Source: Nostoc commune NIES-4072
GTDB taxonomy: Bacteria > Cyanobacteriota > Cyanobacteriia > Cyanobacteriales > Nostocaceae
Reading direction: 5' to 3'
Assembly: GCF_003113895.1 (NCBI RefSeq)
Contig: NZ_BDUD01000001.1
Coordinates: 6,314,792-6,378,791 of the forward strand
Length of the DNA stretch: 64,000 nucleotides
Below, in pieces: positions 1 through 14,051 of the stretch (the stretch's first letter is position 1; the number at the start of each line of letters is the position of its first letter). The notes under the pieces are model-generated. The model was not told where the DNA came from. It saw nothing but the letters and a program-made list of their open reading frames with translations, and did no database searches. A program made the position numbers and the translations under genes.

Positions 1-110
1 ACGCCGAAATAGCAAATGAGTATGCCGAAATAGCAAATGCGTATGCCAACTCTGCACTTAGTTACAAAAATAGCTTGCTTTTTGTAAGTATTCTCTCAAA
101 AATTAAATAG
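1..110 (+). CDS. 3' end of an unidentified gene (partial)
   Basis: One frame (starting at base 3) stays open from the left edge to a TAG at 108-110 and encodes 35 residues. It begins with two near-identical seven-residue units (AEIANEY, AEIANAY) followed by YANSALSYKNSLL. The heptad-like, Ala-rich repetition suggests the tail of a repetitive or coiled protein. The matching DNA repeat spans about bases 1-45. The 5' part is outside the window, so no function can be assigned, and a non-coding tandem repeat is a real alternative. Confidence 0.35.
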   Translation, partial: AEIANEYAEIANAYANSALSYKNSLLFVSILSKIK

Positions 111-602
111 AATTGCGATATTTAGCTAAAAGGATAAAGTGTAGTCTATTTCCTACTGGTAACGGTAGACTGAAATTAACTACATGCGAATGGTAATGTT
201 AATGTAGTATATTTTGTAAGGTCTTATCCATACAAAACAGTGGCTTGGAGTAATAAAATGTTTAGTATAGAACTTGTAACAATGCTGCCAAGCATTGTCT
301 GGCGTTTCTACCGATACCAACCTCTGGTTGAGGCAAAAGCGCTGGCATAGAAAGAGCTTAAAAGGACTGTAGCAGTTCTGGTTTAAAGCTCGAAACCTAG
401 CTTCTCAAACCATGCATAATTCTTTTTTAAACTAAAATTAATATTTAATTAACTGAAATGAATAATAATTTGTATCCAATGTAACATTTTACTGAAAAAT
501 TTATAATTTTATTAAAAATAAATGTTAATTCATGTTAAATTGACTGAAATATTGTAAATTTTTAGACAATAAACACTCAAGTACACCATAGGAAAATTAG
601 CA
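111..602. other. AT-rich spacer upstream of the secretion-like cluster
   Basis: This is a 490-bp AT-rich stretch, especially 420-580, with no long reading frame. It probably carries the promoter region of the downstream cluster, because no earlier gene on this strand is close. The only coding candidate is a 30-aa frame at 258-350, listed separately. No repeat, tRNA or clear terminator was recognised. Confidence 0.5.
258..350 (+). CDS. Candidate 30-aa small peptide
   Basis: An ATG at 258 follows a GGAG at 247-250 with 7-base spacing and opens a 30-codon frame ending in TAG at 348-350. The peptide starts MFSIELVTMLPS and ends VEAKALA, with a mildly hydrophobic first half. The only support is the ribosome-binding site and the lack of another gene nearby; length and composition alone cannot separate it from chance. 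Confidence 0.22.
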   Translation: MFSIELVTMLPSIVWRFYRYQPLVEAKALA

Positions 603-1220
603 ATGTCTAGACAAAGTTCTCACAAGAGAAACTTTTTCAAAGCTTTAACTGGTAGCGCACTCAAAGGATCTCAGAAGTTAAGACTGGGACTAAAATCTAG
701 CTTGATGATTCTGGGGGAATCTGTACCCTTTTTGATTGCTTGTGCTGTACTTGTAAGCGTTATCAGCCTAAATAGTCCTATTTTGCTTTTTTGTTTACTA
801 GTTGGTAGTTTAATTGCAGTCATCACCCAGCAAATTGGGCAACAGGTAAATTTACCAAGGCGATCGCTAATAATATTACAAATATTAGCAGCAGCCGTAA
901 TTTTGAGTTTGTATTGGTTAGACTGGTTTGCAGCCCCTGCACAAGCACAGTTTTTTGGAGAAGCTGAAAAGTTTTTCAAAAGAAACTTAGGTGGAGCACA
1001 AGCAGCTGGTGGTGGTAGTGAGACAGCAATAAGTTTGATATTTAATGTGTTGCGGGCGATATACTTACTCTATATTGCAATTTCTCTAGTTGGTGTGATT
1101 AACGCAGTGCGTAAGGATGAGGATTGGCAAAGCATTGCCAGAACTCCTCTATTAGTCGTTGTTGCTGTTACCGTTGCTGATGTACTCACACGCTTTGTAA
1201 TTGGTCCACAAGGGCAGTAA
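603..1220 (+). CDS. VirB2/TrbC-like pilin or membrane subunit of a T4SS-like cluster
   Basis: This is a 205-residue, very hydrophobic protein. Predicted membrane segments lie at about 35-55, 58-78 and 86-105. A signal-peptidase-like APAQAQ site follows at about 111-116, then a Gly/Ala-rich stretch (129-139) and two more membrane segments (141-166 and 183-201). A cleavable leader followed by a small two-helix mature domain matches VirB2/TrbC pilins, though the leader is unusually long. It is first in a co-directional run whose third gene encodes a VirB4-type ATPase, which supports the call. An AGGAAA lies shortly before the ATG. The family assignment is inferred from topology and gene order, not from sequence identity. 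Confidence 0.5.
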   Translation: MSRQSSHKRNFFKALTGSALKGSQKLRLGLKSSLMILGESVPFLIACAVLVSVISLNSPILLFCLLVGSLIAVITQQIGQQVNLPRRSLIILQILAAAVILSLYWLDWFAAPAQAQFFGEAEKFFKRNLGGAQAAGGGSETAISLIFNVLRAIYLLYIAISLVGVINAVRKDEDWQSIARTPLLVVVAVTVADVLTRFVIGPQGQ

Positions 1221-1245
1221 ATAATTTAGATATTTCATATTTCAA

Positions 1246-1617
1246 ATGTCTCAAGAGCGGGAACAAGATTTTCGTCCAGTCAATCAGGTTCTAGGAAGCC
1301 AACCCTCATTAGGGCCAATCCCTGCTGATCAAATTCTTCCTTGGACAGTAATTGCTTTAGCTTCCTATTTTATTGTCAACGGAGTTTTTGGTGGTCTTTT
1401 CCAAGAAGAGTTTCAAAAGTGGTTGTGGACAATACTAATGACTGGTTGGGGAATAGGAACTTGGTGGATTTTAACTGGTGGTAGGAGTTGGAGTTTTTTA
1501 AGTAAATTTATAGGCGTTCCCGCTTGGACAAGAGGCTTTGCTCGTTATCAAAGCTTATTAGAAGTTAATCATGAAGCAAAAAATCGGAAAACAAAGCGTC
1601 GGCGTCGCCGGAAATGA
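1246..1617 (+). CDS. VirB3-like small membrane protein
   Basis: This 123-residue protein has two predicted membrane helices (about 31-51 and 58-77) and ends in a strongly basic run of Lys and Arg. It sits 25 bp after the pilin-like gene, and its last 47 bp overlap the start of the VirB4-like ATPase in another frame. VirB3 proteins are small, have one or two helices, and nearly always precede or fuse to VirB4, so position and topology both point to VirB3. No diagnostic sequence motif was found, so the call is an inference. Confidence 0.45.
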   Translation: MSQEREQDFRPVNQVLGSQPSLGPIPADQILPWTVIALASYFIVNGVFGGLFQEEFQKWLWTILMTGWGIGTWWILTGGRSWSFLSKFIGVPAWTRGFARYQSLLEVNHEAKNRKTKRRRRRK

Positions 1618-4318
1618 AGGTAGATTAACACCATTTGAAGATGCCTTGCACTTGGCGACAATGCTACGTGTCGCAATGAATGGACGTGATATTGGCGCTT
1701 ACCTTTTGACAAAAGGCACTCAAAGAGATAGGTTTTGCTTTGTTTTTGGTTTTGACTGTAAGGGAATTCATACCACTTTAAGAGCCGAACAAATCGATAC
1801 ACTCTTTAATAACATTGAAGCCGGATTGAAAGACATTCCTAGCGGTGAAAGAATGACACTGCATTTAGGATCTTTTAGTTCCGACAAAGAGCGCCAAAAA
1901 GAATTAGTATCGTTAATCAGAAATGCGCCATCACGAGATATTAAATATTTGTTGATGGCAGAAAGAGCCAGAGTCAAAGAATTAACTATATCTGGTGTTC
2001 GTAAGCCAAAATTTTTGCGAATTTATGTCACTTACACCATTGAATCCAACTCCAGAAATGCAGATGATTGGATAGAAAAACTTTTAGTGAGAGCAGAATC
2101 ATGGTGGTTAAAATTTAAAGGGGATCTTTCAGATGTAGAAAACCAGCGCATAGAAACGCTGATAACAAATGCTTACAAGCAAGGTTTTCTACGCTGGGAG
2201 CAAATTTTATCTAACCAAATGGGATTGGATGTCAAACCTTTGAAAGCTGATGAACTCTGGGAAGGCATCTGGAAAAGGTTTAATGATACGCAGCCAATAC
2301 CGATTCCCCAATTGCTGACTTTAGATGAACAAGGACTGCACGAGCAAGTTAATTCAGATTTAGCTAGTACTAAATTGCTTTTAGACAATATCCACGGCAC
2401 AACTTTGCTGATGGAGTCTAGCGTACCTTGTGCCGATCGCCGTTGGGTTAATGTTAACAATCGTTATATTGGCGCACTCTCATTTCTCGAAAAACCCGGA
2501 GGTTGGGCAAATAAATCTACTCAACTGCGCTATTTATGGGAACTGTTGGCTAGAGAAACAGTAGTAGATACAGAGATTTTTTGTGAATTGACTGCGGCAA
2601 ATCCAGCAATGGTGAAAACTACTTTGCAACGAGTCTTGAAGCAGTCAAACATGACAACAATCATGGCTCAAGAAAAAAGTAAAACTATTGATGTCAACGC
2701 GCAATTAAAGTTGAAGAAATCGGTAGCAGCACAAGAACAATTATTTGAAGGTGCAGTCCCGATTTATACGAGTATCGTTATTTTAGTACATCGTCCAACT
2801 GTCGATAAATTAGATGAGGCAACAAGATATATTGAAAACTGTTTTCAACGTCCAGCAAAATTAATTAGAGAAACTGAATACGCCTGGAAAATTTGGCTGC
2901 AAACTCTCCCAATAGTTTGGGAAGGTTTGTTAGCGACACCTTTCAATCGTCGCCAGCTATATTTAACCAGTGAAGTTCCCGGATTAATGCCTTTAGTTTT
3001 AACTAAACAGGGTGATAAACAAGGCTTTGAGTTGATTGCTGAAGAAGGTGGAACACCCATACATTTAGATTTGTTTAATCAGCACAAAAATTTAGCTTTG
3101 TTTGCCACAACGCGTGCTGGTAAATCGGTGTTGGTATCAGGGATTTTAACTCAGGCTTTGGCGCATGGTATTCCGGTTGTGGCGTTAGATTTCCCAAAAC
3201 CTGATGGTACATCTACTTTTACTGATTACACAGAGTTTATGGGGGTCAATGGAGCGTACTTTGATATCTCCAAACAATCGAATAACTTATTTGAACAGCC
3301 AGACTTACGATCGCTAGATCCAGAACAACAGCGCGATCGCTTTAACGATTATACCGCCTTCCTAGAATCAGCTTTGATGACAATGGTTTTAGGATCATCG
3401 ACTGAAAGTCAAATTTTATCGCAAACCGTGCGATCGCTCCTCAACTTGGCATTAGAAGCCTTCTTTGCTGATGAGGGTATAAAACAGCGATATATACAGG
3501 CGATGGCGGGAGGATTTGGCACTCAGGCTTGGCTGAAAACTCCTACTTTAAAAGATTTTCTGTATTTCTGTTCATCAGAACACTTGCAGCTAAATACTTT
3601 AACAGGCAGAGTAGAAGATGCTCTTAGTCAAATTCAGTTGCGCTTGCGGTTTTGGCTTTCTAGTCGCGTGGGACAAGCTATTTCTGCACCATCGAGCTTT
3701 CCCACCGATGCACAACTTTTAGTTTTTGCTCTGAGAAACCTATCAGATAGTGAAGATGCAGCCGTACTATCTCTAAGTGCCTATTCAGCAGCATTACGAC
3801 GCGCATTAGGTAGTCCAGCTTCTATATTCTTCATTGACGAAGCACCAATTCTATTTGAATTCGAGCAAATTTCTGACTTAGTTGGCAGAGTTTGTGCAAA
3901 CGGCGCTAAAGCCGGTATCAGAGTCATCTTATCAGGACAAGATCCTGATACAATTGCCAAGTCTAAAGCTGCATCTAAGATTTTGCAAAACTTGACAACA
4001 CGATTGATTGGACGCATTCAGCCGGTTGCAGTCGATAGTTTTGCAGATATCTTAAAATATCCCCGCAATATTATTGCTCGTAATGCCTCAGAAAGCTTTT
4101 TTCCCCGCAAAGAAAGCGTTTATAGCCAATGGCTGTTAGATGATAACGGTATTTATACATTCTGTCGTTATTATCCAGGTTACGAACAATTGGCAGCAGT
4201 TGCTAATAACCCTGCTGAACAAACTGCACGCAGTAAAATGATGCAACTTCATAGCGATAAATATGAAGCAATTTCTGCATTTGCACGTCAGTTAGTGGCT
4301 AATCTGCGTAGTAGTTAA
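1571..4318 (+). CDS. VirB4/TraC-type secretion ATPase
   Basis: This 915-residue protein matches the size and layout of VirB4 motor ATPases: a long N-terminal domain, then a RecA-like ATPase domain. Walker A reads TTRAGKS with the lysine near 518; Walker B reads IFFIDEA with Asp-Glu near 756-757. VirB4 ATPases power pilus assembly and substrate transfer at the inner membrane. The ATG at 1571 lies inside the preceding gene and is kept because the next in-frame ATG is 90 bp downstream; a start near 1661 is possible. This is the best-supported gene of the cluster and anchors the reading of the others. Confidence 0.8.
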   Translation: MKQKIGKQSVGVAGNEGRLTPFEDALHLATMLRVAMNGRDIGAYLLTKGTQRDRFCFVFGFDCKGIHTTLRAEQIDTLFNNIEAGLKDIPSGERMTLHLGSFSSDKERQKELVSLIRNAPSRDIKYLLMAERARVKELTISGVRKPKFLRIYVTYTIESNSRNADDWIEKLLVRAESWWLKFKGDLSDVENQRIETLITNAYKQGFLRWEQILSNQMGLDVKPLKADELWEGIWKRFNDTQPIPIPQLLTLDEQGLHEQVNSDLASTKLLLDNIHGTTLLMESSVPCADRRWVNVNNRYIGALSFLEKPGGWANKSTQLRYLWELLARETVVDTEIFCELTAANPAMVKTTLQRVLKQSNMTTIMAQEKSKTIDVNAQLKLKKSVAAQEQLFEGAVPIYTSIVILVHRPTVDKLDEATRYIENCFQRPAKLIRETEYAWKIWLQTLPIVWEGLLATPFNRRQLYLTSEVPGLMPLVLTKQGDKQGFELIAEEGGTPIHLDLFNQHKNLALFATTRAGKSVLVSGILTQALAHGIPVVALDFPKPDGTSTFTDYTEFMGVNGAYFDISKQSNNLFEQPDLRSLDPEQQRDRFNDYTAFLESALMTMVLGSSTESQILSQTVRSLLNLALEAFFADEGIKQRYIQAMAGGFGTQAWLKTPTLKDFLYFCSSEHLQLNTLTGRVEDALSQIQLRLRFWLSSRVGQAISAPSSFPTDAQLLVFALRNLSDSEDAAVLSLSAYSAALRRALGSPASIFFIDEAPILFEFEQISDLVGRVCANGAKAGIRVILSGQDPDTIAKSKAASKILQNLTTRLIGRIQPVAVDSFADILKYPRNIIARNASESFFPRKESVYSQWLLDDNGIYTFCRYYPGYEQLAAVANNPAEQTARSKMMQLHSDKYEAISAFARQLVANLRSS

Positions 4319-4355
4319 TCGGGTTATGTAAGCAGTTAACAGTGATTGAAAAAGT

Positions 4356-4441
4356 TATATAGAACCCTCATTTGATTTTTGAAAAAACTCCGTATAACTC
4401 AAACAAGCCGATTCCCCACTCCCCACTCCCTACTCCCTACC
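4356..4441 (+). repeat. Repeat-family copy with CCCCACTCCC tract
   Basis: The spacer after the VirB4-like gene holds a unit reading TATAG...ATTTGATTTTTGAAAAA followed by a CCCACTCCCC-type tract. The same arrangement appears twice, in opposite orientations, between the two VirB8-like genes. It is non-coding. Confidence 0.5.
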
Positions 4442-4493
4442 TTCTTATAAATCATAATTAAAAAGCTAAATTACCTTTTTCAGGCACAAATGT

Positions 4494-5354
4494 ATGCGAA
4501 AAACTACCATTTTTACTCTGACGTTGCTATCCCTAGCAATCCTACCAGTAATGGCACAACAAGATCAAACGCTAGTAGGTCAGGTTTGGAGTGATTTTCA
4601 ATCATATTCTAGAGATTTGCAAGATTACTTTCAATATAGGAATGTTAACGAAAACTTAAACCCTGAATCAGATGGTCAAAATGCTATTAGTGCTACCAGT
4701 AACGAGGGAGAATTAAAAATACCTAACCCCGTCGCTGCGGGACAAAAGGTTCGTGATAATGTGAATTACTACTCTTATCGTTCACAGTCTAAAGCAAGCC
4801 GCTTTGAAAATAATGCAGCAGTACGGGGAAATTTAGCTAGTAATGAACTCAATCGTTTAATGACCCGTGGAATAGCGGTAGGTGTTCTTGGTAAAAATGC
4901 ACAAAGTCGGACAAAAGGAAAGTTAGAAAATATTCAGGATGAGCTTTTTGGAAATCTTAATGATGGAGGAAGTACCCCACCACCACCAACAAATTGTACT
5001 GGTGATCCTGTTCAGAAACAAGCATGTGATGCTGTAGTAGCATTAACAACTACATTGCTAAATCTAAACAACGAAACCATTCAAATGCAAAAATTACAAG
5101 CAAAAATTGTAGCCGAAACATTTGTCCAGTCAATACAAACGAATCAGTCTTTACAATATTCTAATTTAAATTTAGCAAACATTTCTCAGCAGGCAGAAGA
5201 GGCAAATCGCGCTCGAAGAGTAGATACATCTACAGAAACAGCGCGACTTTTACGAGCTACTTCTCAACTAGATTTGTTTGGTAAAGAAAAAATTGGGAAT
5301 GAGGATCTTAGGATCAAAAGAAGTATAACTATCCGTACAAAAATAAATTTTTAA
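4494..5354 (+). CDS. Secreted coiled-coil protein, VirB5/TrbJ-like
   Basis: This 286-residue protein has a typical signal peptide (residues 1-21, cleavage after VMA). A short proline run sits near 160, with Cys residues on either side of it (CTGDPVQKQAC). The C-terminal half is helical and rich in Gln, Asn and Glu, consistent with a coiled coil. VirB5/TrbJ minor pilins are periplasmic helical proteins encoded between VirB4 and VirB6, which is exactly this position. Sequence alone does not prove homology; other secreted helical proteins would look similar. Confidence 0.45.
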   Translation: MRKTTIFTLTLLSLAILPVMAQQDQTLVGQVWSDFQSYSRDLQDYFQYRNVNENLNPESDGQNAISATSNEGELKIPNPVAAGQKVRDNVNYYSYRSQSKASRFENNAAVRGNLASNELNRLMTRGIAVGVLGKNAQSRTKGKLENIQDELFGNLNDGGSTPPPPTNCTGDPVQKQACDAVVALTTTLLNLNNETIQMQKLQAKIVAETFVQSIQTNQSLQYSNLNLANISQQAEEANRARRVDTSTETARLLRATSQLDLFGKEKIGNEDLRIKRSITIRTKINF

Positions 5355-5400
5355 AATACTTAAACTTCTACAAGCTAACAGTAAGTCTAAAAAACAGTTT

Positions 5401-5476
5401 GGTAGGTTGCGTTACGCTGTCGCTAATGCACCGAAAGCATCCGAAATGGTGCGTTAAGAACGTAACGCACTCTACG
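5401..5476. repeat. Palindromic GCGTTACG-type repeat
   Basis: The spacer before the VirB6-like gene contains an imperfect palindrome, GTAGGTTGCGTTACGCTGTC on the left and AACGTAACGCACTCTAC on the right, around a short centre. A related palindrome (GTAGGGTGTG... CACACCCTAC) lies at 10431-10510. Such dispersed palindromes are common in Nostoc genomes. Confidence 0.6.
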
Positions 5477-5506
5477 AAATTTCAAAAAACAGTCAATTAA
5501 CTCAAA

Positions 5507-6577
5507 ATGCAACTTGCTATTCAACTAATTTTTGCCCAATTAGAACCCCAATTAGGCATTGATGAGGTTCTCACTAAGGGTGCTGTAACTTCCCAAAGTA
5601 TTGCCGAGGGTTGGAATAGTCAATGGCTGAATTTATTACAAAATACTGGCAATGGTACTTTGTATGGAACACTGACAACGCTGGGTATTTTTTTTGCAGT
5701 AGGAACCCTGTTATTTTTTATGATACAATTCCTCAAAGACTTAATATCCTACGAATATAGTCGTCCAATATCAGCTTTAATCTGGCCTTTTGTAGTGGTG
5801 ATTCTCTTAAGTAATTCAGGTAAAGGAAGTATCCTTTCTAATCTGACACTGGGGTTACGGGGTTATTTAAACACTGTGAATCAGCAATTAGTGGTATCAC
5901 CAAATACGAGTAAAATGTACCAAGAAGCGCTGAATATGAGTGTTGCAGAAGAAGTAACTGGTTCTTTTCTGCGTCCTTGCCAATCGCTAACTGGTGAACA
6001 ACAAAGTGAATGCTTTAAGAGAGCTACCGATAGAATCATTATTCTCTTGAGGAGATATAGAACTACATACGGAAATAAAAACTGGATAATTAGACTACAA
6101 GATAAAGTAAATGAGATAAATAATGTTAGTTCTGTTCGTGGCATAGTATCAGAAACGTCATTTAATTCTTTGTTAGGTTCTACAGTGCAAACAAGCATCA
6201 AAAGCTTTTTAGTTTCCTTACAATATGCGTTTCAGAATTTGATAGAAGCTACTATGTTGCTGATAGCACTTTTAGGGCCAATAGCTGTAGGTGGATCTTT
6301 ACTACCTGTAGCTGGTAAACCAATTTTTGCATGGCTGACCGGATTTTTATCTATTGGAATTGCCAAGATTTCATTCAATATTATTGCTGTGCTGACTGCC
6401 GCAGTTATTGTAAATGGCCCAGGTCAAAATTTTAATGCTGATCCAGATTTAATGTGGTTCATAATTTTTCTGGGAATTTTAGCACCAATTTTATCGCTAC
6501 TTGTGGCTGCTGCTGGCGGTTTTGCCCTCTTCAGTGGGATCAGTAATACAGCTTCTTTAGTAAGGGAGAGGATTTAA
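5507..6577 (+). CDS. VirB6/TrbL-like polytopic membrane protein
   Basis: This 356-residue protein has predicted membrane segments at about 50-75, 85-105 and several between 235 and 345, separated by a polar loop of roughly 120 residues. A multi-helix core with a large soluble loop matches VirB6/TrbL, the inner-membrane channel component. It follows the VirB5-like gene, as in classical virB operons. No strong Shine-Dalgarno precedes the ATG at 5507. The call rests on topology and synteny. Confidence 0.5.
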   Translation: MQLAIQLIFAQLEPQLGIDEVLTKGAVTSQSIAEGWNSQWLNLLQNTGNGTLYGTLTTLGIFFAVGTLLFFMIQFLKDLISYEYSRPISALIWPFVVVILLSNSGKGSILSNLTLGLRGYLNTVNQQLVVSPNTSKMYQEALNMSVAEEVTGSFLRPCQSLTGEQQSECFKRATDRIIILLRRYRTTYGNKNWIIRLQDKVNEINNVSSVRGIVSETSFNSLLGSTVQTSIKSFLVSLQYAFQNLIEATMLLIALLGPIAVGGSLLPVAGKPIFAWLTGFLSIGIAKISFNIIAVLTAAVIVNGPGQNFNADPDLMWFIIFLGILAPILSLLVAAAGGFALFSGISNTASLVRERI

Positions 6578-6943
6578 CAATTAAAAATTAAAAATTTAAA
6601 ATGAATAAAATTTTGATAAGTGTCCTGACTGCGGAATTATATGCAAATCGTAATTAACATAAGCCCTCTTGCAAAAGTTTCTAGCACCCCACCTCCAACT
6701 CCTTCCCGCTTGCGGGGCTACATATACACAAGTCAAATTACCCCCCTTAATCCCCCCTTAGAAAGGGGGGAAACAGGAGTCTAGTTCCCTCCTCCCCTTT
6801 CCAAGGGGGCAAACAGGAATCTAGTTCCCTCCCCTTTCCAAGGGGAGGGTTAGGGTGGGGTAAAACTGACGCGAAAAACCAGGTGAGTAAACTATTTCAG
6901 ACTTATAGAATAGCTGAATTTTTTTGCAGGAGAAGATGAGTAA
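6578..6943. repeat. 366-bp spacer with C/G hairpins and a direct repeat
   Basis: No gene is apparent. A perfect hairpin with arms CCCCCCTT (6752-6759) and AAGGGGGG (6763-6770) is followed by two near-identical direct repeats starting AAACAGGAGTCTAGTTCCCT (about 6771-6809 and 6811-6845), each ending in a CCTTTCCAAGGGG fold-back. These look like dispersed non-coding repeats. They could also act as a transcription terminator or attenuator between the VirB6-like and VirB8-like genes. Confidence 0.55.
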
Positions 6944-7771
6944 ATGGTGCGTTTACTAGAAAAAAGACAAAGAACGACGGCAAGTGTTTTAACGATTTTT
7001 GCGATCGCAACCTTCAGTTTACATATACTAGTTTTATTTTTTTTATTATTACAAGGGCTAAATATTCGCCAACTCAGTGTGAGAAAACCTCCTAACTTCG
7101 TGCAATTAATAGACGGTAAACCAGTAGCTAATATTGATGATTTAGCAAGAGAACCCGAAGCTATTCGCCAATTCGTCAGCAAAACGATGATATCAATGTT
7201 TAGCTGGTCTGGAACCTTACCAGTACAAAATATTGAAGAAGTTGCAAACCCCAAACCAGATTTAGGAGTTCTTATTCAAGCACCTCAAGGGGGTAGCCAA
7301 AAAGTTAGTACCAGCAGTTGGATAGCTAGTTTTGCCTTATCCGAAGACTTTCGCAAAGGTTTCTTAAGCACAGTTGCAGAAATGACACCAGCAGAAGTTT
7401 TCTCTGAAAATCCCAATCTAGCTATGACATCACAATTAGTGATTAAGCGAGTTTATCCGCCAAGACAAATTGCACCAGGTAAGTGGCGAGTCGGTATGGT
7501 AGCCGACTTAATCCAAAAAAACCGAGTTGGTGGTGCAAGACTTATAACTCCTTTTAACAAAGATTTACTTGTACGTGCAGCAGATTATTTTGGTAATCCC
7601 CAAGGCGACAGTGGCACAGACTTGCAAAAAGCAATTTATAGTGTCCGCGCTGATAGATTAGAAATTTATGAAGTTCGTAACTTATGTTTGCTAGATGGCA
7701 ACAACAGCCTTAACAATGATAAATTAACCCAATGCGGCCCTGGACAAACATCTGATAGCTTTATTAGATGA
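6944..7771 (+). CDS. VirB8-like bitopic membrane protein, copy 1
   Basis: This 275-residue protein has a short cytoplasmic N-terminus, one membrane helix (about 14-37) and a large periplasmic domain, the layout of VirB8/TraE/TrbF. It shares clear identity with the next gene: QLIDGKP against QLVDGRA, REPEAIRQFV against RQPEAIRRFV, and similar blocks near the end (RLEIYEVRNLC against RLEIYNVCDI). A good ribosome-binding site (GCAGGAGAAG) precedes the ATG at 6944. The assignment is by architecture and location. Confidence 0.5.
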   Translation: MVRLLEKRQRTTASVLTIFAIATFSLHILVLFFLLLQGLNIRQLSVRKPPNFVQLIDGKPVANIDDLAREPEAIRQFVSKTMISMFSWSGTLPVQNIEEVANPKPDLGVLIQAPQGGSQKVSTSSWIASFALSEDFRKGFLSTVAEMTPAEVFSENPNLAMTSQLVIKRVYPPRQIAPGKWRVGMVADLIQKNRVGGARLITPFNKDLLVRAADYFGNPQGDSGTDLQKAIYSVRADRLEIYEVRNLCLLDGNNSLNNDKLTQCGPGQTSDSFIR

Positions 7772-7985
7772 GTAGGGAGTGGGGAGTAGGGAATGGGGAG
7801 TGGGGAGTGGGGAATCAGCCTTTTCGAGTTGAGGGTTTTTTTAAAAAATCAAATAAGACCTATAGATTTCTAATTCACTAATTCAATTTATAGGACTAAT
7901 ATTTTATTTATGAAAAAGCTCGGTACAGATCGAAAAGCCTAATTCCCTACTTCCCACTCCCCACTCCCCACTCCCCACCCACATA
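7768..7985. repeat. Large imperfect inverted repeat between the two VirB8-like genes
   Basis: A G-rich left arm (GGGAGTGGGGAGT units, from 7768) pairs with a C-rich right arm (CCCACTCCCC units, to 7979). The inner parts also pair: CAAATAAGACCTATA (7850-7864) with TATAGGACTAATATTTTATT (7889-7908). The whole can fold into one hairpin of about 100-bp arms. A further end of the family (CAAATACGATTCCTATA) lies at 8000-8016, just before the next start codon. Confidence 0.6.
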
Positions 7986-8024
7986 GATAATTTCAAAAAT
8001 CAAATACGATTCCTATAATTATTA

Positions 8025-8729
8025 ATGCAATTACTCAAACCAGAAAATAGGAAAAATAACCCATTGCCACTGTTAGCAGTAGGAACATTTGGGTTACATG
8101 TATTGACCTTGCTTTTACTACTATTTCACGGGTCTATGTTACAACAACTAGGCCGACAACTCACACCTCAAAGTTTAGTGCAACTTGTTGATGGTCGCGC
8201 TATAACCGTAGACCCCGAACCAAATTTAGAGCGACAGCCAGAGGCTATTCGGCGATTTGTGGGTGAAACTATGAGCTTAATGCTTACCTGGTCAGATCAA
8301 CAGCCGCCAACGCAAGTCTGGGAAATCACTTCCCAACTCGTAGCTGATAATTTTCAACAAAAACTTCAATCAGAAATTACCAATTTAAATCCAGATAGCC
8401 AATTTGAAAATGTTAATAGAGGAGCAGAGAGTGTATTAGTAATCCAAAAAATCTCTCAACCTACAGAAATAGGTAATGGACAGTGGAAAGTGGAGATGTT
8501 TGCTAATCAACTAGTATTTAGCGGTTATGATAGGTTGGGAAAATCAACTTCGTTTAATAAACAAATTTTAGTTAGAGCAATAGATGAACCCGCAACTTCC
8601 CTACCAAATGCAGCACTACCATTGCAGTTCGCAGCTTACCGCCTTGGTGAAGCCAGACTAGAAATTTATAATGTATGTGATATCAAAGATAAAAATTGTT
8701 CTGCAAATCCTAATCAAGCTTTACCATGA
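8025..8729 (+). CDS. VirB8-like bitopic membrane protein, copy 2
   Basis: This 234-residue paralogue of the preceding gene has a single helix at about 15-35 followed by a periplasmic domain. Conserved blocks are QLVDGRA, RQPEAIRRFVGETM, FNKQILVRA and ARLEIYNV, in the same order as in copy 1. Its end overlaps the start of the VirB10-like gene by 4 bp (ATGA), indicating translational coupling. The two copies are diverged enough that they may make a hetero-oligomer; that is inference. Confidence 0.5.
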   Translation: MQLLKPENRKNNPLPLLAVGTFGLHVLTLLLLLFHGSMLQQLGRQLTPQSLVQLVDGRAITVDPEPNLERQPEAIRRFVGETMSLMLTWSDQQPPTQVWEITSQLVADNFQQKLQSEITNLNPDSQFENVNRGAESVLVIQKISQPTEIGNGQWKVEMFANQLVFSGYDRLGKSTSFNKQILVRAIDEPATSLPNAALPLQFAAYRLGEARLEIYNVCDIKDKNCSANPNQALP

Positions 8730-10324
8730 CTAAATACTCAACTCCTGCGGAAACACCTGCTCAAAATGAATTTACTCTACCTCCCGATGCTCAACAACAA
8801 GATGTAGAATCTTTTGATTGGGAATCGCGGATGTCAAGGTTGGTCGGCTTTGATGAAGAATCTTCTCCCGATACCCAAGGATCAGAAGATGTAACATCGC
8901 AAGAATCGCTATCTCTTCCACAAGAAGTTCAGACTAAGCAACCCCTCTCATCTAATCCCTTTGCAAAGTTAGGCTTGGTAGGAGCCGCTACCTTTGCGAT
9001 CGTTTTGGTGGGTGGCGTGTTTTTGTCCCAATTAATGAGTAGCAATCCCAAGCCAAAAACTATTGTTGCTCCACAAGTACCTGAGCAGCCAACTGATGAA
9101 TCTACCTCTCAACAACTAGCAGGCGAAGTAGATACTCTGAAAACGAAATTAGCCCTGACTGAACAAGCAGAGATGGTGAAAGCCGCGCAACAACAGCTTA
9201 GAACTGCCAAATCAGCGTCTACAGTACCTTTACCACAACCGTCAGTTTCTTCTAGAGGTACACAAAGAGTGATCCCAACACCCCCACCAACAGCTTACGT
9301 CCCTCGGACAGTGACAGTTGAGCGTGTCGTTAGAGTACCTGCATCTCAACCTTCGCCCCAACTACCAGTTGTGCAGCCAAGCACTCAACGTCAACCTCAA
9401 CCCGTAGTTAATATAACTCCACCATCTCCACCAAACCCATTGCAAGAGTGGAGAAGGTTAGCAAAGTTAGGTAGCTACGGTCAACTAGATGCTACGAATC
9501 AATCTAATAACATAGCAACAGCTCCTGAACCTGTAAATAATCCGCAGCCGCAGCAACAACAGACACCACCACCACCACAAACTTCTGCTCCTGAGGTGAG
9601 TCAAGCGCAACCTGTGGGACAGAAATCCTTAGCAGTAGGGACTAGTGCTAGAGCTGTGTTAGCAACAGCGATATCTGGGGAAACTACTACTAGATCAGGC
9701 GGTGGTGATGAAGGAAGCCAAGCGAAAAACGTATCCGTGATCATCAAATCGCAAGAAGCACTAAAAGCTAAGGATGGTACTACTGTCATACCTGCAAACA
9801 CCGAATTTCTAGCTGAAATTAGTTCCATTAACGAACAAGGTCTTGTGCAGATGAACGTAACTAAACTTATCTCGCAAAATAATGGCAACCCTACCGAACA
9901 AAGCTTACCCAGCAATGCAATTATTGTTCGCGGTTCCCAAGGTAAACCTTTAGTAGCAAGTAAATATCCCGGTCAAAGTTCGCCCATAGCATCAATGGAT
10001 GTAGGATCATTCCTTGTGAATGGTATTAGTAAAGCGGCAGCGTTAATAAATACCCCTGATACCACACTCGTTTCCTTACCCAGCACCACCACCACCACTA
10101 ATAGCGAGGGCAACACCACCCCCGTCACTACTTATACTACTGGTACTATCACTGAGAACAAACGCAACCTTGCAGCGGCGGTTCTGGAAGGTGGTACTAC
10201 CTCTTTATCACAACAAATTGGACAACGTAATCAACAGGCGATCGCCCAAATGTCACAACCAACTAATATTTGGTTTATGCAAGCTGGTACAAATGTTGAA
10301 CTATACGTTAATCAACCAATCTAG
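8726..10324 (+). CDS. VirB10/TrbI-like scaffold protein
   Basis: This 532-residue protein has the VirB10/TrbI layout: acidic cytoplasmic N-terminus, one membrane helix (about 82-103), a short coiled segment, a Pro/Gln-rich periplasmic linker (about 205-300), and a C-terminal domain containing LKAKDGTTVIPANTEFLAEI followed by GLVQMNVTKL, the type of beta strand pattern seen in TrbI cores. VirB10 spans from the inner to the outer membrane and links the VirB8/VirB6 parts to VirB9. It is coupled to the upstream gene by a 4-bp overlap. After VirB4 it is the best match in the set. Confidence 0.68.
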   Translation: MTKYSTPAETPAQNEFTLPPDAQQQDVESFDWESRMSRLVGFDEESSPDTQGSEDVTSQESLSLPQEVQTKQPLSSNPFAKLGLVGAATFAIVLVGGVFLSQLMSSNPKPKTIVAPQVPEQPTDESTSQQLAGEVDTLKTKLALTEQAEMVKAAQQQLRTAKSASTVPLPQPSVSSRGTQRVIPTPPPTAYVPRTVTVERVVRVPASQPSPQLPVVQPSTQRQPQPVVNITPPSPPNPLQEWRRLAKLGSYGQLDATNQSNNIATAPEPVNNPQPQQQQTPPPPQTSAPEVSQAQPVGQKSLAVGTSARAVLATAISGETTTRSGGGDEGSQAKNVSVIIKSQEALKAKDGTTVIPANTEFLAEISSINEQGLVQMNVTKLISQNNGNPTEQSLPSNAIIVRGSQGKPLVASKYPGQSSPIASMDVGSFLVNGISKAAALINTPDTTLVSLPSTTTTTNSEGNTTPVTTYTTGTITENKRNLAAAVLEGGTTSLSQQIGQRNQQAIAQMSQPTNIWFMQAGTNVELYVNQPI

Positions 10325-10397
10325 TTTTAAAAGATAGGATTTATACCAATTTTAGATTTTTGATTGGGTAATAGTAATTGGGAATTAGTTTTCTTTC

Positions 10398-10549
10398 TAT
10401 AGGACTAGTATTTGATTTATGAAAAGATACGTAGGGTGTGTTAGCGACAGCGTAACGCACCATCATCAAGGGTTTGGTGCGTTACGAACTGCGTTCTAAC
10501 ACACCCTACAATACCTAATTTTGTTCAAAAATTAAATATGATTCCTATA
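10398..10549. repeat. 152-bp element bounded by inverted TATAGGA ends
   Basis: The left end reads TATAGGACTAGTATTTGATT and the right end is its imperfect reverse complement (AAATATGATTCCTATA). Inside, at 10431-10510, lies a palindrome with GTAGGGTGTG and CACACCCTAC at its ends. The outer ends belong to the same family as those at 7889, 7850-7864 and 8000-8016. It looks like a non-autonomous element or a compound of nested repeats; no target duplication was evident. Confidence 0.55.
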
Positions 10550-10598
10550 TCTTTCCCATGTTATCCTGTTCTATCTACCAATCTCCCCATTTGCAACC

Positions 10599-11171
10599 AT
10601 GAAAAAGAATTCTAACTTGTCAGGAAATACGCCAAGTAATTCTTATTTCCTACCTATAGCTTCCTTAATTTTCTCGGTTGCTATGTTATTGTTGGTAGGT
10701 CGCGCTGTCGCTAATAACGCTGTTCTGCGTTCCATATTTTCCTGTCAAGCACAGGGTTTAGGGGGAGCAATACCTACGATTGACGTTTGGTATCAACAAG
10801 GAACAAACTTAAGCTTTATTCAGGCTGGAGAAGTAATTAAAAAAGTTTGGTTAAACGATCCATCACAGGTAACTATAGACTTTGATGGGCCAGTATGTAT
10901 GCAGTTTGGTCAAGACTCTAATAGTAGTGGAGGAGATTGTAAAAACTCCTCAGCGAATGTAATTCAACTCAGACGAATTCAAAAACTAAATATTCCTGGG
11001 CTTCCTCCCACTAGTAATACACTTTTAACAGTTGTTACCGAAGGGCAAGGTAGAAATAAGTTGTATACTTTTAAAGTGATATATAAAACAGATAACCCTG
11101 AATATCACACTTTAGCAGTTTTTGCCGATCCTTCTGGTCAGGAAGGAGCTTGTGCGAGAGTTCCACAATAA
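10599..11171 (+). CDS. Short VirB9/TrbG-like protein
   Basis: This 190-residue protein has an N-terminal membrane segment (about 19-38) that may act as a signal anchor. The rest is a beta-rich domain. The order GEVIKKVWLNDPSQVTIDF, VIQLRRI, TLLTVVTEGQGRNKLYTF matches the VirB9/TrbG N-terminal pattern (a strand after a pair of basic residues, then a T-rich strand, then Y-T/F-x-F). It follows the VirB10-like gene. At 190 residues it lacks the C-terminal half usual for VirB9. Two Cys residues (about 100 and 113) could form a disulfide. Moderately uncertain. Confidence 0.42.
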   Translation: MKKNSNLSGNTPSNSYFLPIASLIFSVAMLLLVGRAVANNAVLRSIFSCQAQGLGGAIPTIDVWYQQGTNLSFIQAGEVIKKVWLNDPSQVTIDFDGPVCMQFGQDSNSSGGDCKNSSANVIQLRRIQKLNIPGLPPTSNTLLTVVTEGQGRNKLYTFKVIYKTDNPEYHTLAVFADPSGQEGACARVPQ

Positions 11172-11353
11172 ATTTCTCGCAAAAGTACCCGACAGCGAAG
11201 ACAACTGAACTTTCCCTCCACAAAAAGCGCTGAAGCCTACGTATGTCTGCATTGTGGCTTTTCAAAAAGCTTACTCTAATTCTGACTTTTCACGTTATTT
11301 AGTTAGGAAAGCCCACAAAAAAGTAACCCCCTAACCCCCTTCCCGACGCGCAA

Positions 11354-11489
11354 GGTGGTTTCATACAACCAGAGAAAAACTAAAACTGGGTTTCAAAGCC
11401 TCTCTCCGTTTCGGGGAGAGGTTTGGAGAGGGGTGAAAAGCCAAAGAAATCAAAATTTATGTATTTTTCTTTTTTCGTATGAAACCACC
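11354..11489. mobile_element. MITE-like element with 13-bp perfect terminal inverted repeats
   Basis: The ends are GGTGGTTTCATAC (11354-11366) and its exact reverse complement GTATGAAACCACC (11477-11489), 136 bp in total. An internal hairpin (CCTCTC...GAGAGG, about 11400-11421) is also present. There is no coding capacity, which fits a miniature inverted-repeat element or a related dispersed repeat. No target-site duplication is obvious. Confidence 0.5.
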
Positions 11490-11567
11490 CTGCTTTTAGT
11501 CTACGTTTCTCAACCCAAGCATATTGGGTTAGAGAGCATCTAACTCTTTGGGCAGTTTTTTTCTTTA

Positions 11568-11604
11568 TAGAGCAAGGTTAGCCTAAAGGTTAGGCACTGC
11601 TCTA
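11568..11604. other. Two-part perfect hairpin
   Basis: Outer arms TAGAGCA (11568-11574) and TGCTCTA (11598-11604) enclose an inner stem GCCTAA/TTAGGC (11581-11586 and 11590-11595) with a three-base loop. No long U-tract follows, so it is not a classical terminator on the + strand. It could be a structured RNA segment or a protein site. Confidence 0.4.
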
Positions 11605-11751
11605 GTTCAATGAATTGAAAAACGCTATGACTCAACTAGTTAACCGATTCAGCCATTTTCAGCCTATAACTTTATAAATCTTCAGCTAAATACTAACTAC
11701 AAATTCCAAATCTGTGTAAATATAAAGAAAAGCTTAAGAGGTTACAGACTC

Positions 11752-11991
11752 ATGGTCACTGCCAAAATGATGCAACAGCTTTGGGCTGTAATCGAGTCTA
11801 CCCAGGTCAGCACCCTGCTCCAGTTTGACGATGCTGCTTTAGTACAAGTGCTTCTGCAACAGTTAAAAGCGAAGCAGGCTATTGATCCCCAGGCAGATAG
11901 CAGTCTCAATAGTTATATAAAATCTAAACTGCCCCTGATTCGTGATACGGCTGAAGGTCGATTATCCTTCGGGCAAGGTGGCAATCATTAG
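11752..11991 (+). CDS. Small soluble hypothetical protein
   Basis: The 79-residue predicted product is mostly helical and ends in a flexible Gly-rich tail (FGQGGNH). It starts MVTAKMMQQLWAVIE and contains no membrane segment, metal motif or recognised domain. The start follows TTAAGAGGTTACAGACTC, giving a plausible AGAGG ribosome-binding site. It resembles the short hypothetical proteins commonly found in Nostocales, but I cannot assign a role. Confidence 0.6.
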   Translation: MVTAKMMQQLWAVIESTQVSTLLQFDDAALVQVLLQQLKAKQAIDPQADSSLNSYIKSKLPLIRDTAEGRLSFGQGGNH

Positions 11992-12054
11992 TACGAGAAA
12001 TCAAATGATTTCTCACCGCCAAGCATACGCTCAGAGTTGAAACAGTTGAATATT

Positions 12055-12312
12055 ATGAATAACTGGCTAGTAATTGCCCTAGTAGCTTATCTAATTGGAG
12101 CAGCGATTGAAGGGGTGACTACAGCCAGTCAGCTATCTCATTCAGTGCCAGAATTAGCTAAAAACACACAAACTCACCCTTCAGATTCTGCCACTGAATC
12201 TAGTTCGACTTGGCGAGTTGTGGCTGCGATCGCCTCAGTAAGTATATGTGGAGCTTTTTTGTGGCCTTGCCGGCTTTTCCACCGTTTAATTAAAAGCAAG
12301 GTTAATTCGTAA
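12055..12312 (+). CDS. Small two-helix membrane protein, hypothetical
   Basis: The protein has about 85 residues from the ATG at 12055; a TTG six codons upstream (12037) is also possible. An N-terminal membrane helix (NNWLVIALVAYLIGAAIEG) is followed by a polar Ser/Thr-rich loop and a second helix (VVAAIASVSICGAFLW) with a basic tail. It lies 63 bp after the preceding small gene and converges with the ABC exporter gene. No family was recognised. Confidence 0.5.
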   Translation: MNNWLVIALVAYLIGAAIEGVTTASQLSHSVPELAKNTQTHPSDSATESSSTWRVVAAIASVSICGAFLWPCRLFHRLIKSKVNS

Positions 12313-12314
12313 GC

Positions 12315-14051
12315 TTAATCCTCATCAGAATAAAACTGTTGGGCATAAAAACGGGCATAGCGTCCTTCCTGAGACAGGAGGGAGGTATGAGTGCCAGCTT
12401 CAACCACCTGTCCTTGTTCTAGTACGAGAATGCAGTCAGCCCTACGAACGCTGCTCAAGCGATGGGCGATAACAAACACGGTACGGTTTTGCATGACTCG
12501 CTTGATCGCTTCTTGAACTAGTGCTTCTGACTCCGAATCTAAGGCAGAAGTAGCTTCATCCAGGATGAGAATTCGAGGATCGTTGACGATCGCTCTAGCA
12601 ATGGCTAATCTTTGGCGCTGTCCTCCAGATAGGTTAACTCCGCGTTCGCCAACCCAGCTATGATAACCTTGGGAAAACTGGGTGATGAACGAGTGAGCGT
12701 TGGCAATCTTTGCTGCTGACTCAATTGCTGGCAAATTTAATTCTTCTTGACCATAACCAATATTTTGGGCGATCGTTCCCGAAAAAAGAGTAATATCCTG
12801 GGGAACAATGCCAATTTGATGGCGCAAACTTGTGAGTGTGACATCACGGATATCAATATCATCAATCAAAATTTCACCCGCCTGGGGGTCATAAAAACGA
12901 AGTAAAAGGTTAATTAAAGTCGATTTGCCTGCCCCAGAAGAACCAACCAAGGCAATCACACTACCAGGAGAAGCGTGCAGACAAAGATCCTTAAGCACTG
13001 GCTCGTCGGGATTGTAAGCGAAATTGACATGACGATACTCTACCTTACCAGCAATTCGTGGCAGTTCCTTAGCATTGGGTTTTTCAATTAAACTAGGTTG
13101 CTTTGCCATCAATTCAAAGATGCGTTCGACGGAAGCTTCTGTCTGCTTGTACTCGTTGTAATTGCTAATCAGCAAGTCGATTGGCTGAATCAGTAATGCC
13201 ACAGCAGCTAAGAAACTGATAAAGCCTTGAGATGTCAGCTGATTTTGAGAAATCTGCCATCCTCCCAAGAGAAACAGCAGCATAATACTAACTGCTTCCA
13301 AAAAACCAACAACAGGAAACTGAAGAGATTTGAGTTGTTGAGCGCGATACTTCGTTTGACGATTATGTTCTGCTTCCTGATTGAATCGCTTGACCTCATA
13401 CCCTTGTGCTGCAAAAGCTTGAACGACGCGAATTCCGCTAAATACTTCAGTTAACAGAGCCGACAAATTGGAAACTTGATTTTGACTCTGGCGAGATAGC
13501 AAAAGTAATCGCTGACCAAATACCCCGATCAACCAAGCCATCAAAGGAGCCAAAATTAAACCCGCAAGGGTAAGTGGCCAATTCAGATAGAGCATGTAAA
13601 TGGGAATCGCAATTAACTGCAACAGATTGGAAAGAAACTGATGGGATAATTTATCTACAATCTCGCCAACGCGATCGATATCTTCAGTCAGTCGATAAGT
13701 GAGGTCACCCGTCTGTGTGGTTTCAAAATAATCCAATCCGAGTTTGTGCAAGTGAGCGTAAACCCGCTTACGCAAATTCAAAACCATATTCAGAGCGGCA
13801 GCAATCATAAAGACATTCTGCCCGTATTGACAAAAGCCTCGAACTAAAAATACTACAGTAGCTACTCCGAGCCAGTAGGCAATTTGGTTAACATTTCCCT
13901 GACCAAGAAAAACAGCGACCTGACCTGCTAGGTAGGGTATTGCTAGGGTGAGCAATACAAATCCTAAGATACAAACGAATCCCCGAACTAACAGCGGCCA
14001 TTGAGGCCACAGATAAGGTAACAATTGCCAGTAGCTAGAGCGGACTTTCAT
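12315..14051 (-). CDS. ABC exporter, fused membrane and ATPase domains
   Basis: This 578-residue half-transporter has six predicted membrane helices in residues 15-295, then a nucleotide-binding domain. Walker A is GSSGAGKST (370-378), the signature LSGGQRQR starts at 474, and Walker B ILILDEA ends near 500; the D-loop SALD and H-loop (IAHRLS) are also present. It would function as a homodimer or heterodimer exporting lipid, polysaccharide or a drug-like compound. The substrate cannot be read from the sequence. It resembles MsbA-type exporters, which are numerous in Nostoc. All catalytic motifs look intact. Confidence 0.9.
   Translation of the reverse strand: MKVRSSYWQLLPYLWPQWPLLVRGFVCILGFVLLTLAIPYLAGQVAVFLGQGNVNQIAYWLGVATVVFLVRGFCQYGQNVFMIAAALNMVLNLRKRVYAHLHKLGLDYFETTQTGDLTYRLTEDIDRVGEIVDKLSHQFLSNLLQLIAIPIYMLYLNWPLTLAGLILAPLMAWLIGVFGQRLLLLSRQSQNQVSNLSALLTEVFSGIRVVQAFAAQGYEVKRFNQEAEHNRQTKYRAQQLKSLQFPVVGFLEAVSIMLLFLLGGWQISQNQLTSQGFISFLAAVALLIQPIDLLISNYNEYKQTEASVERIFELMAKQPSLIEKPNAKELPRIAGKVEYRHVNFAYNPDEPVLKDLCLHASPGSVIALVGSSGAGKSTLINLLLRFYDPQAGEILIDDIDIRDVTLTSLRHQIGIVPQDITLFSGTIAQNIGYGQEELNLPAIESAAKIANAHSFITQFSQGYHSWVGERGVNLSGGQRQRLAIARAIVNDPRILILDEATSALDSESEALVQEAIKRVMQNRTVFVIAHRLSSVRRADCILVLEQGQVVEAGTHTSLLSQEGRYARFYAQQFYSDED

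Follow-up and report, generated by a model that had tools for sequence, protein, structure and literature searches.

The VirB block and its genes

The window analysed here is the whole of a 64,000-nucleotide stretch of the Nostoc commune NIES-4072 chromosome (C1:6314792-6378791), in a genome of 8.2 Mb and 11 contigs (contig C1 measures 7.15 Mb and plasmid C2 0.81 Mb). It carries a block of nine genes resembling the VirB components of type IV secretion systems (T4SSs). An earlier note, made from the sequence alone, had described nine plus-strand genes in the order virB2-3-4-5-6-8-8-10-9, and all nine open reading frames (ORFs) lie where it had placed them. The first gene (603..1220) encodes a VirB2-like pilin precursor of 205 amino acids (aa), with an AxA|QF cleavage-like site, and a mature part of about 90 residues containing two hydrophobic segments. 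It is followed by a VirB3-like gene (1246..1617, 123 aa), which overlaps the gene of the VirB4 ATPase (1571..4318, 915 aa), a protein whose Walker A and B motifs are identical in 80 of 80 orthologues. Next come a VirB5-like gene (4494..5354, 286 aa), whose product starts like a signal peptide, and the gene of a polytopic VirB6-like protein (5507..6577, 356 aa) with about six hydrophobic segments (six were counted). The paralogues VirB8a (6944..7771, 275 aa) and VirB8b (8025..8729, 234 aa), each with a single N-terminal membrane segment, are followed by VirB10/TrbI (8726..10324, 532 aa; one hydrophobic segment at residues 82-100) and by a VirB9-like protein (10599..11171, 190 aa), which is devoid of the C-terminal extension present in four plasmid copies. 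The hydrophobicity profile places an N-terminal hydrophobic segment in both the VirB5-like and the VirB9-like protein. Conservation along the VirB5-like protein is 0.30 in bin 161-180 versus 0.90 in bin 221-240.

Judged by sequence comparison, the block is a VirB set related to the cyanobacterial plasmid type MPF_C. As in VirB-type T4SSs, a VirB4 ATPase with Walker motifs and VirB10/TrbI are both present. VirB10 is the only block protein above a Pfam cut-off (36.3 bits against TrbI, PF03743, for a cut-off of 35), while VirB4 matches the NCBIfam models TraC-F (8e-16) and VirB4_CagE (8e-11), both far under the curated bit cut-offs. The earlier note had found VirB4 and VirB10 convincing by motif or architecture: this holds for VirB10, and for VirB4 by E-value and motifs, but not on bit cut-offs. 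Of the profile hidden Markov model searches it had proposed, the one for VirB10 gave a match above cut-off, and Pfam recognised none of VirB5, 6, 8 and 9. As curated models recognise few of the proteins, the remaining names come from homology to plasmid MPF_C genes, gene order and topology. In tblastn searches, identity to the conjugative locus of plasmid C2 (L008) is 34% for VirB2, 44% for VirB3, 52% for VirB4, 38% for VirB6, 33% for VirB8a, 26% for VirB8b, 25% for VirB10 and 40% for VirB9; the VirB5-like protein, whose plasmid similarity is weak, finds no match in this locus. With hhalign, VirB8a aligns to plasmid VirB8 (100% probability, E 6e-55), and VirB8b to both VirB8a (100%, E 1e-40) and plasmid VirB8 (100%, E 2e-39). 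Profile searches against solved structures yielded nothing for VirB8a, nothing credible for VirB6 and VirB4, and chance-level matches only for VirB9.

Differences from plasmid MPF_C and missing components

Plasmid C2 of the same genome carries a divergent mating locus with a relaxase, which contains a Mob_Pre domain (L008:4530-6248), and VirD4. The locus comprises VirB2-3-4, a 289-aa ORF covering the VirB5/VirB6 regions, VirB8, VirB10, VirB9, a 404-aa protein X and VirD4. Its VirB2, 3, 4, 6, 8, 10 and 9 are homologous to those of the block and lie in the same order. The relaxase, VirD4 and gene X belong to the plasmid locus, whereas the block is chromosomal and has none of the three; in addition, plasmids have one VirB8 and a longer VirB9, while the block has two VirB8 and a shorter VirB9. 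Between the VirB4 of the block and those of L008, L133, L134 and L135, identity is 52-60%. This comparison used plasmid C2 and other plasmid loci; pCC7120alpha, whose MPF_C set includes relaxase alr7199, VirB4 alr7206 and VirD4 alr7213 (PMC8600333), was included by description only. The 289-aa ORF of plasmid C2 (L008:12799-13668) begins like a signal peptide and resembles VirB6 in its C-terminal half. Plasmids such as L134 have two genes instead; the C2 mating machine may be altered. The genome also holds two MPF_C remnants, one at C2:449478-452313 (L009), with VirB4 in two pieces, and one at C1:2813077-2814333 (L010), with a VirB4 piece, an internal TAG and transposase-like ORFs nearby.

The earlier note had seen no VirB11, VirD4 or relaxase in the window and had asked whether missing parts might lie to the left. 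Both flank reading and genome searches uphold the absence. No relaxase or VirD4 was found among the ORFs read by eye in the 20 kb left of the window, which instead hold ordinary genes (assignments by eye include fructokinase-, MsrA-, dTDP-glucose dehydratase-, MBOAT- and MltA-like ORFs), and tblastn with T4SS, VirD4, gene X and relaxase queries matched nothing in 40 kb to the left. By eye, no integrase was recognised in these 20 kb among the ORFs of 100 aa or more, on which no integrase model was run. Genome-wide, VirD4 is located on C2 and C3, and relaxase-like matches, searched with the C2 relaxase and PF01076, on C2, C5, C7, C8 and C9; neither occurs on C1. On the missing relaxase and VirD4, an ordinary integrative and conjugative element (ICE) is rejected. 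Finally, only three T2SSE-family ATPases exist in the whole genome, all on C1, far from the block, and read as PilB, PilT and PilT-like. VirB11 is thus absent from the block and the plasmid mating locus alike, and its absence, although real, is no peculiarity of the block, as the complete mating locus of plasmid C2 also does without it.

The same picture is found at other loci. VirD4 and MOBV-type (C2-type) relaxases gave no tblastn match in the available flanks of 80 loci. A linked partner gene was likewise rejected, since beyond close Nostoc relatives no flanking family keeps a fixed place.

Distribution of the block

In a scan of species genomes, the best 80 of 148 relatives were kept. The VirB4 of these 80 loci shares 79-99% identity with that of the window across 910 or more of its 915 residues, and the loci belong to Nostoc, Anabaena, Tolypothrix, Calothrix, Nodularia, Rhizonema, Westiellopsis, Mastigocoleus and other genera. 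In 70 of the 80 loci, the full set of nine genes keeps its order on a single strand, which excludes chance. Nine of the ten incomplete loci have a contig end near the missing genes (judged from locus length). The only rearranged locus of the 80 is L063 (Nostoc sp. T09): VirB6, VirB8a and VirB9 are missing from its contig, a VirB8a of this strain is listed from a contig of another length, and the irregularity may be due to rearrangement or to an assembly break.

Of 205 Nostocaceae genomes with a completeness of 95% or more, 179 encode some type of VirB4 (E <= 1e-100), and at least 149 (own genome included) have a VirB4 at least 79% identical and free of internal stops. Six single-contig genomes have one VirB4 only (G313, G197, G258, G288, G289, G339). 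The block, whose conservation in Nostocales the earlier note had wished to see checked, is thus common across Nostocaceae and not peculiar to this strain. Outside the family, an order-level survey of 195 genomes found full-length VirB4 above 65% identity in G155 (80%) and G165 (69%) only; four genomes of genus code g44 match at 54%. VirB8b provides a lineage marker: among 244 genomes surveyed across the phylum, it occurs at E <= 1e-60 in 13 family genomes and, outside the family, in G155, and three further matches (1e-15 to 1e-20) resemble ordinary MPF_C VirB8. VirB8a has 298 homologues, including proteins of Nostoc punctiforme, which has the block, Chlorogloeopsis fritschii and Nostoc sp. PCC 7524 (Nos7524_0776); among the 120 listed, names are hypothetical, uncharacterized or none, with one exception ("POTRA domain-containing protein").

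Inheritance and selection

Scores of VirB4 and PilB against this genome, PilB being the sole core yardstick, are strongly correlated in 132 genomes (Pearson 0.93, Spearman 0.89; 16 genomes without a listed PilB score and the own genome were left out). The Spearman coefficient is 0.67 in the 82 more distant genomes and 0.40 in the 50 nearest. In a VirB4 tree of 69 rows, Tolypothrix-type, Rhizonema, Westiellopsis-Pelatocladus, Nodularia-type and Nostoc rows stand next to their kin, although several genera as named by NCBI (Nostoc and Calothrix among them) are split over the tree. In a tree of 32 rows, the chromosomal rows form a clade with Gloeothece and G155 (support 98/94.9). The chromosomal rows alone are not significantly supported (60/89.9), so transfer to or from the Gloeothece and G155 lineages is possible. 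Distances of the other eight genes follow those of VirB4 (r 0.66-0.90, 26 species).

Ratios of nonsynonymous to synonymous substitution rates (dN/dS), from a comparison of the window with seven loci of the Nostoc clade, are 0.04-0.13 for VirB3 and VirB4 (0.04-0.10 for VirB4), 0.10-0.34 for VirB2, 8a, 8b and 9, 0.19-0.53 for VirB6 and 0.39-0.56 for VirB10. The VirB5-like gene, with VirB10 the fastest-evolving of the block, reaches 0.37-1.14. Two apparent signs of degradation were rejected: the shortening of VirB6 in five loci is an artefact of start choice, as the reading frame is open there, and the stops flagged in VirB8b of G287 and G351 are terminal (one more is flagged in G235). Together, these comparative data suggest that the block is host-domesticated, being chromosomal, inherited largely vertically and under purifying selection, which is strong on VirB3 and VirB4.

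The block is preceded by an AT-rich leader (420..602, plus strand) with repeats resembling AATGTTAA. This 8-mer is present in 10 of 27 upstream regions compared, a recurrence for which base composition alone may account. Of these 27 regions, none has a LexA box and two have NtcA-like palindromes. Rfam gave no match in window positions 1-14000.

Related sets outside the family

Two sets outside the family are close to the block. Both Gloeothece verrucosa PCC 7822 (replicon Cy782201, L132) and G155 (L136) have, like the block, twin VirB8, a VirB5-like gene, VirB6, VirB10 and VirB2-3-4, but their gene orders differ from that of the block and VirB9 is not recognised. Neither VirD4 nor a relaxase was found in the stretch read of either locus, and the Gloeothece set sits on an 880 kb replicon typed non-mobilizable. 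Three plus-strand genes, annotated as dimethylformamidase-like and two hypotheticals, precede the Gloeothece block (L132:3549-9124) and might share an operon with it.

G165 (L137, L145), the nearest VirB4 outgroup, has twin VirB8, gene X and the longer VirB9, and no VirD4 match in 40 kb; from its gene content, it may represent a stage between plasmid MPF_C and the chromosomal block. The MPF_C sets of the g44 genomes G160 and G084 (L138, L139, L144), which lie on contigs of 8.26 and 1.69 Mb, have only one VirB8 each; the set of G084 also includes gene X and VirD4, adjoining VirB9. The g44 set may be an ICE or a separate domestication.

VirD4 and relaxases in near-closed genomes

We searched for VirD4 in 18 near-closed genomes, hand-picked for few contigs and mostly few VirB4 matches, a choice that biases the sample towards genomes without plasmid copies. 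With PF10412, ten genomes give no match, two (G369 and G204) only 21-22 bits, and six a clear VirD4. A cyanobacterial VirD4 query, which does find the VirD4 beside the MPF_C set of G084, was run on 13 of these genomes (G338 and the 12 lacking a clear match) and matches G338 only, giving no confirmation of the weak matches in G369 and G204. Thus, 12 of the 18 are without VirD4. Fifteen have a listed VirB4 orthologue, ten without VirD4 and five with it (G338, G310, G260, G286, G264). G284, which has no listed orthologue, carries tandem VirB8a and VirB8b and shows neither VirD4 nor a PF01076 match. The relaxase model PF01076, which in the window's own genome (G000) matches on C2 and C9, gives no match in the same 13 near-closed genomes, G338 included, or in 14 control genomes; as it is silent even in G338 and the controls, other relaxase families may be present.

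A probably repurposed conjugation machine

These observations are probably best explained by a repurposed T4SS, namely an MPF_C machine captured by the chromosome of a Nostocaceae ancestor and working without VirD4 and VirB11, perhaps as a contact pilus or surface conduit. Comparison suggests that an MPF_C-type mating machine would have entered this chromosome, that the relaxase, VirD4 and gene X would then have been lost, VirB8 duplicated and VirB9 shortened, and that the set would thereafter have been inherited largely vertically and retained by selection. The earlier note had proposed a minimal or repurposed machine, for example for DNA exchange or effector delivery; comparison supports the former part, while the two uses are guesses. 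A machine fixed in most sampled Nostocaceae, yet devoid of the components that select and cut DNA for export, probably serves the host cell itself.

In VirB-type systems, VirB3, 4, 6 and 8 form the inner-membrane complex, VirB9 and VirB10 make up the outer core, the pilus consists of VirB2 with VirB5 at the tip, and VirD4 recruits cytoplasmic substrates. The nine genes would thus suffice for an inner complex, an outer core and a pilus of VirB2 tipped by the VirB5-like protein, with VirB4 as the only motor ATPase. With VirD4 missing, a relaxase-DNA complex should not leave the cytoplasm. If all this holds, we tentatively suggest that the block could build a contact or adhesion pilus, or a surface conduit, whose variable VirB5-like part would meet cells or surfaces. 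We prefer this function because the VirB5-like protein changes fast, and because competence in Chlorogloeopsis is attributed to type IV pili and Com proteins.

Several points weigh against this interpretation. No member of three alignments for VirB6, VirB8 and VirB9 (two of them with plasmid copies) receives a Pfam name, the VirB5-like protein is equally unrecognised, and the names of VirB5, 6, 8 and 9 derive from plasmid genes that were themselves placed by synteny. No VirB7-like lipoprotein was found in five gaps scanned, save one lipobox-like short ORF in one locus. The block can also be lost: 26 of the 205 Nostocaceae genomes have no VirB4 at E <= 1e-100 (median size 5.2 Mb, range 4.3-7.0, for the 20 listed), and the best VirB4 match of G220, G247, G256 and G350 is too weak for an orthologue. 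VirD4 does occur in 6 of the 18 near-closed genomes, presumably on other elements. The surface argument is weakened by VirB10, which is no tip protein and evolves about as fast as VirB5 (amino-acid distance 0.50 versus 0.48). Finally, the pilus is assumed, and any function is predicted from the genes.

Alternative explanations

The main rival to the contact pilus is a machine for host DNA uptake or exchange, similar to ComB or Ced, which would bring DNA to the periplasm for import by other proteins. ComB likewise works without VirD4 and VirB11 (PMC12857230), and Ced and Ted, conjugation machines turned to the use of their hosts, import DNA (PMC9905601). However, ComB has no VirB5, while the VirB5-like gene is conserved in the block, genes for DNA processing keep no fixed place near the block, and the account of Chlorogloeopsis competence cited above names, in the relevant passage, type IV pili and Com proteins but not VirB (PMC9429965). 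We regard this explanation as doubtful, albeit serious.

Also serious, but rather unlikely, is the VirD4-free export of periplasmic cargo in the manner of pertussis Ptl, the cargo being proteins or metabolites such as scytonemin. Unpublished data mentioned by Soule et al. 2009 indicate that a conjugation-like T4SS secretes scytonemin in N. punctiforme (PMC2726228), one of the species with the block, but the passage in question names no genes, and no gene for a secreted cargo keeps a fixed position beside the block. We similarly think it unlikely that the block serves heterocyst formers as a core, vertically inherited and domesticated machine that passes DNA or other cargo from cell to cell, within a filament or to a neighbouring one; such an exchange system would pair a single ATPase with a heteromeric VirB8 and a VirB5 tip that varies between lineages.

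Plasmids bringing their own relaxase and VirD4 might instead use the block in trans, as a chromosomal helper. The small contigs C5, C7, C8 and C9 do carry a relaxase and no VirB4 match, and many family genomes hold plasmid MPF_C in addition to the block, but the latter is kept in genomes without detected VirD4 or PF01076 relaxase (the only relaxase search made there), and a helper role seems improbable. Lastly, an integrated conjugative element in decay would fit the missing relaxase and VirD4, the existence of true remnants in this genome (L009 and L010) and the rearranged L063, but is very improbable and was rejected, given nine intact genes collinear in most loci, low dN/dS for most of them, conserved ATPase motifs and listed VirB4 orthologues free of internal stops.

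Relation to earlier work

Guglielmini et al. 2011 reported that many environmental bacteria, including cyanobacteria, have relaxase-less T4SSs which might secrete proteins, and, in the passage concerned, placed cyanobacterial ICEs in Cyanothece only, details being promised elsewhere (PMC3158045). Their relaxase-less T4SSs may or may not include the block. A literature search by title and abstract, with most subscription journals and bioRxiv preprints outside its scope, retrieved no paper describing it. Among T4SSs without VirD4, a 2025 review discusses Ptl, Brucella VirB, ComB and Bartonella Trw, and its main text contains no word beginning with "cyanobacter" (PMC12857230). According to its account, ComB takes up DNA, Ptl and Brucella VirB use a two-step cargo route, adhesive pili have been proposed for Trw, and the F system does not need VirB11 (PMC12857230).

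Few T4SSs without VirD4 exist. The block, retained in most sampled Nostocaceae, would add a bacterial example of a conjugation apparatus domesticated by its host. It would also be a candidate for a surface or exchange function in multicellular cyanobacteria and, if the intercellular-transfer explanation were true, would represent a host-owned exchange system of multicellular bacteria.

Comparison with known systems

Among the systems with which the repurposed machine can be compared, Bartonella Trw keeps VirB11. Like the block, Trw is VirB-only, with no VirD4 and a variable VirB5 (PMC12857230), but it has several copies of VirB2 and VirB5, whereas the block has one of each. Helicobacter pylori ComB resembles the block as a chromosomal VirB set without VirD4 and VirB11 (PMC12857230); it has no VirB5 and its DNA uptake is demonstrated, while the block has a VirB5-like gene and a putative function. 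Finally, Ced/Ted, set beside the block by description only, are archaeal and have counterparts of VirB2, VirB4 and VirB6 only, but they are conjugation machines domesticated by the host chromosome (PMC9905601), as the block probably is.

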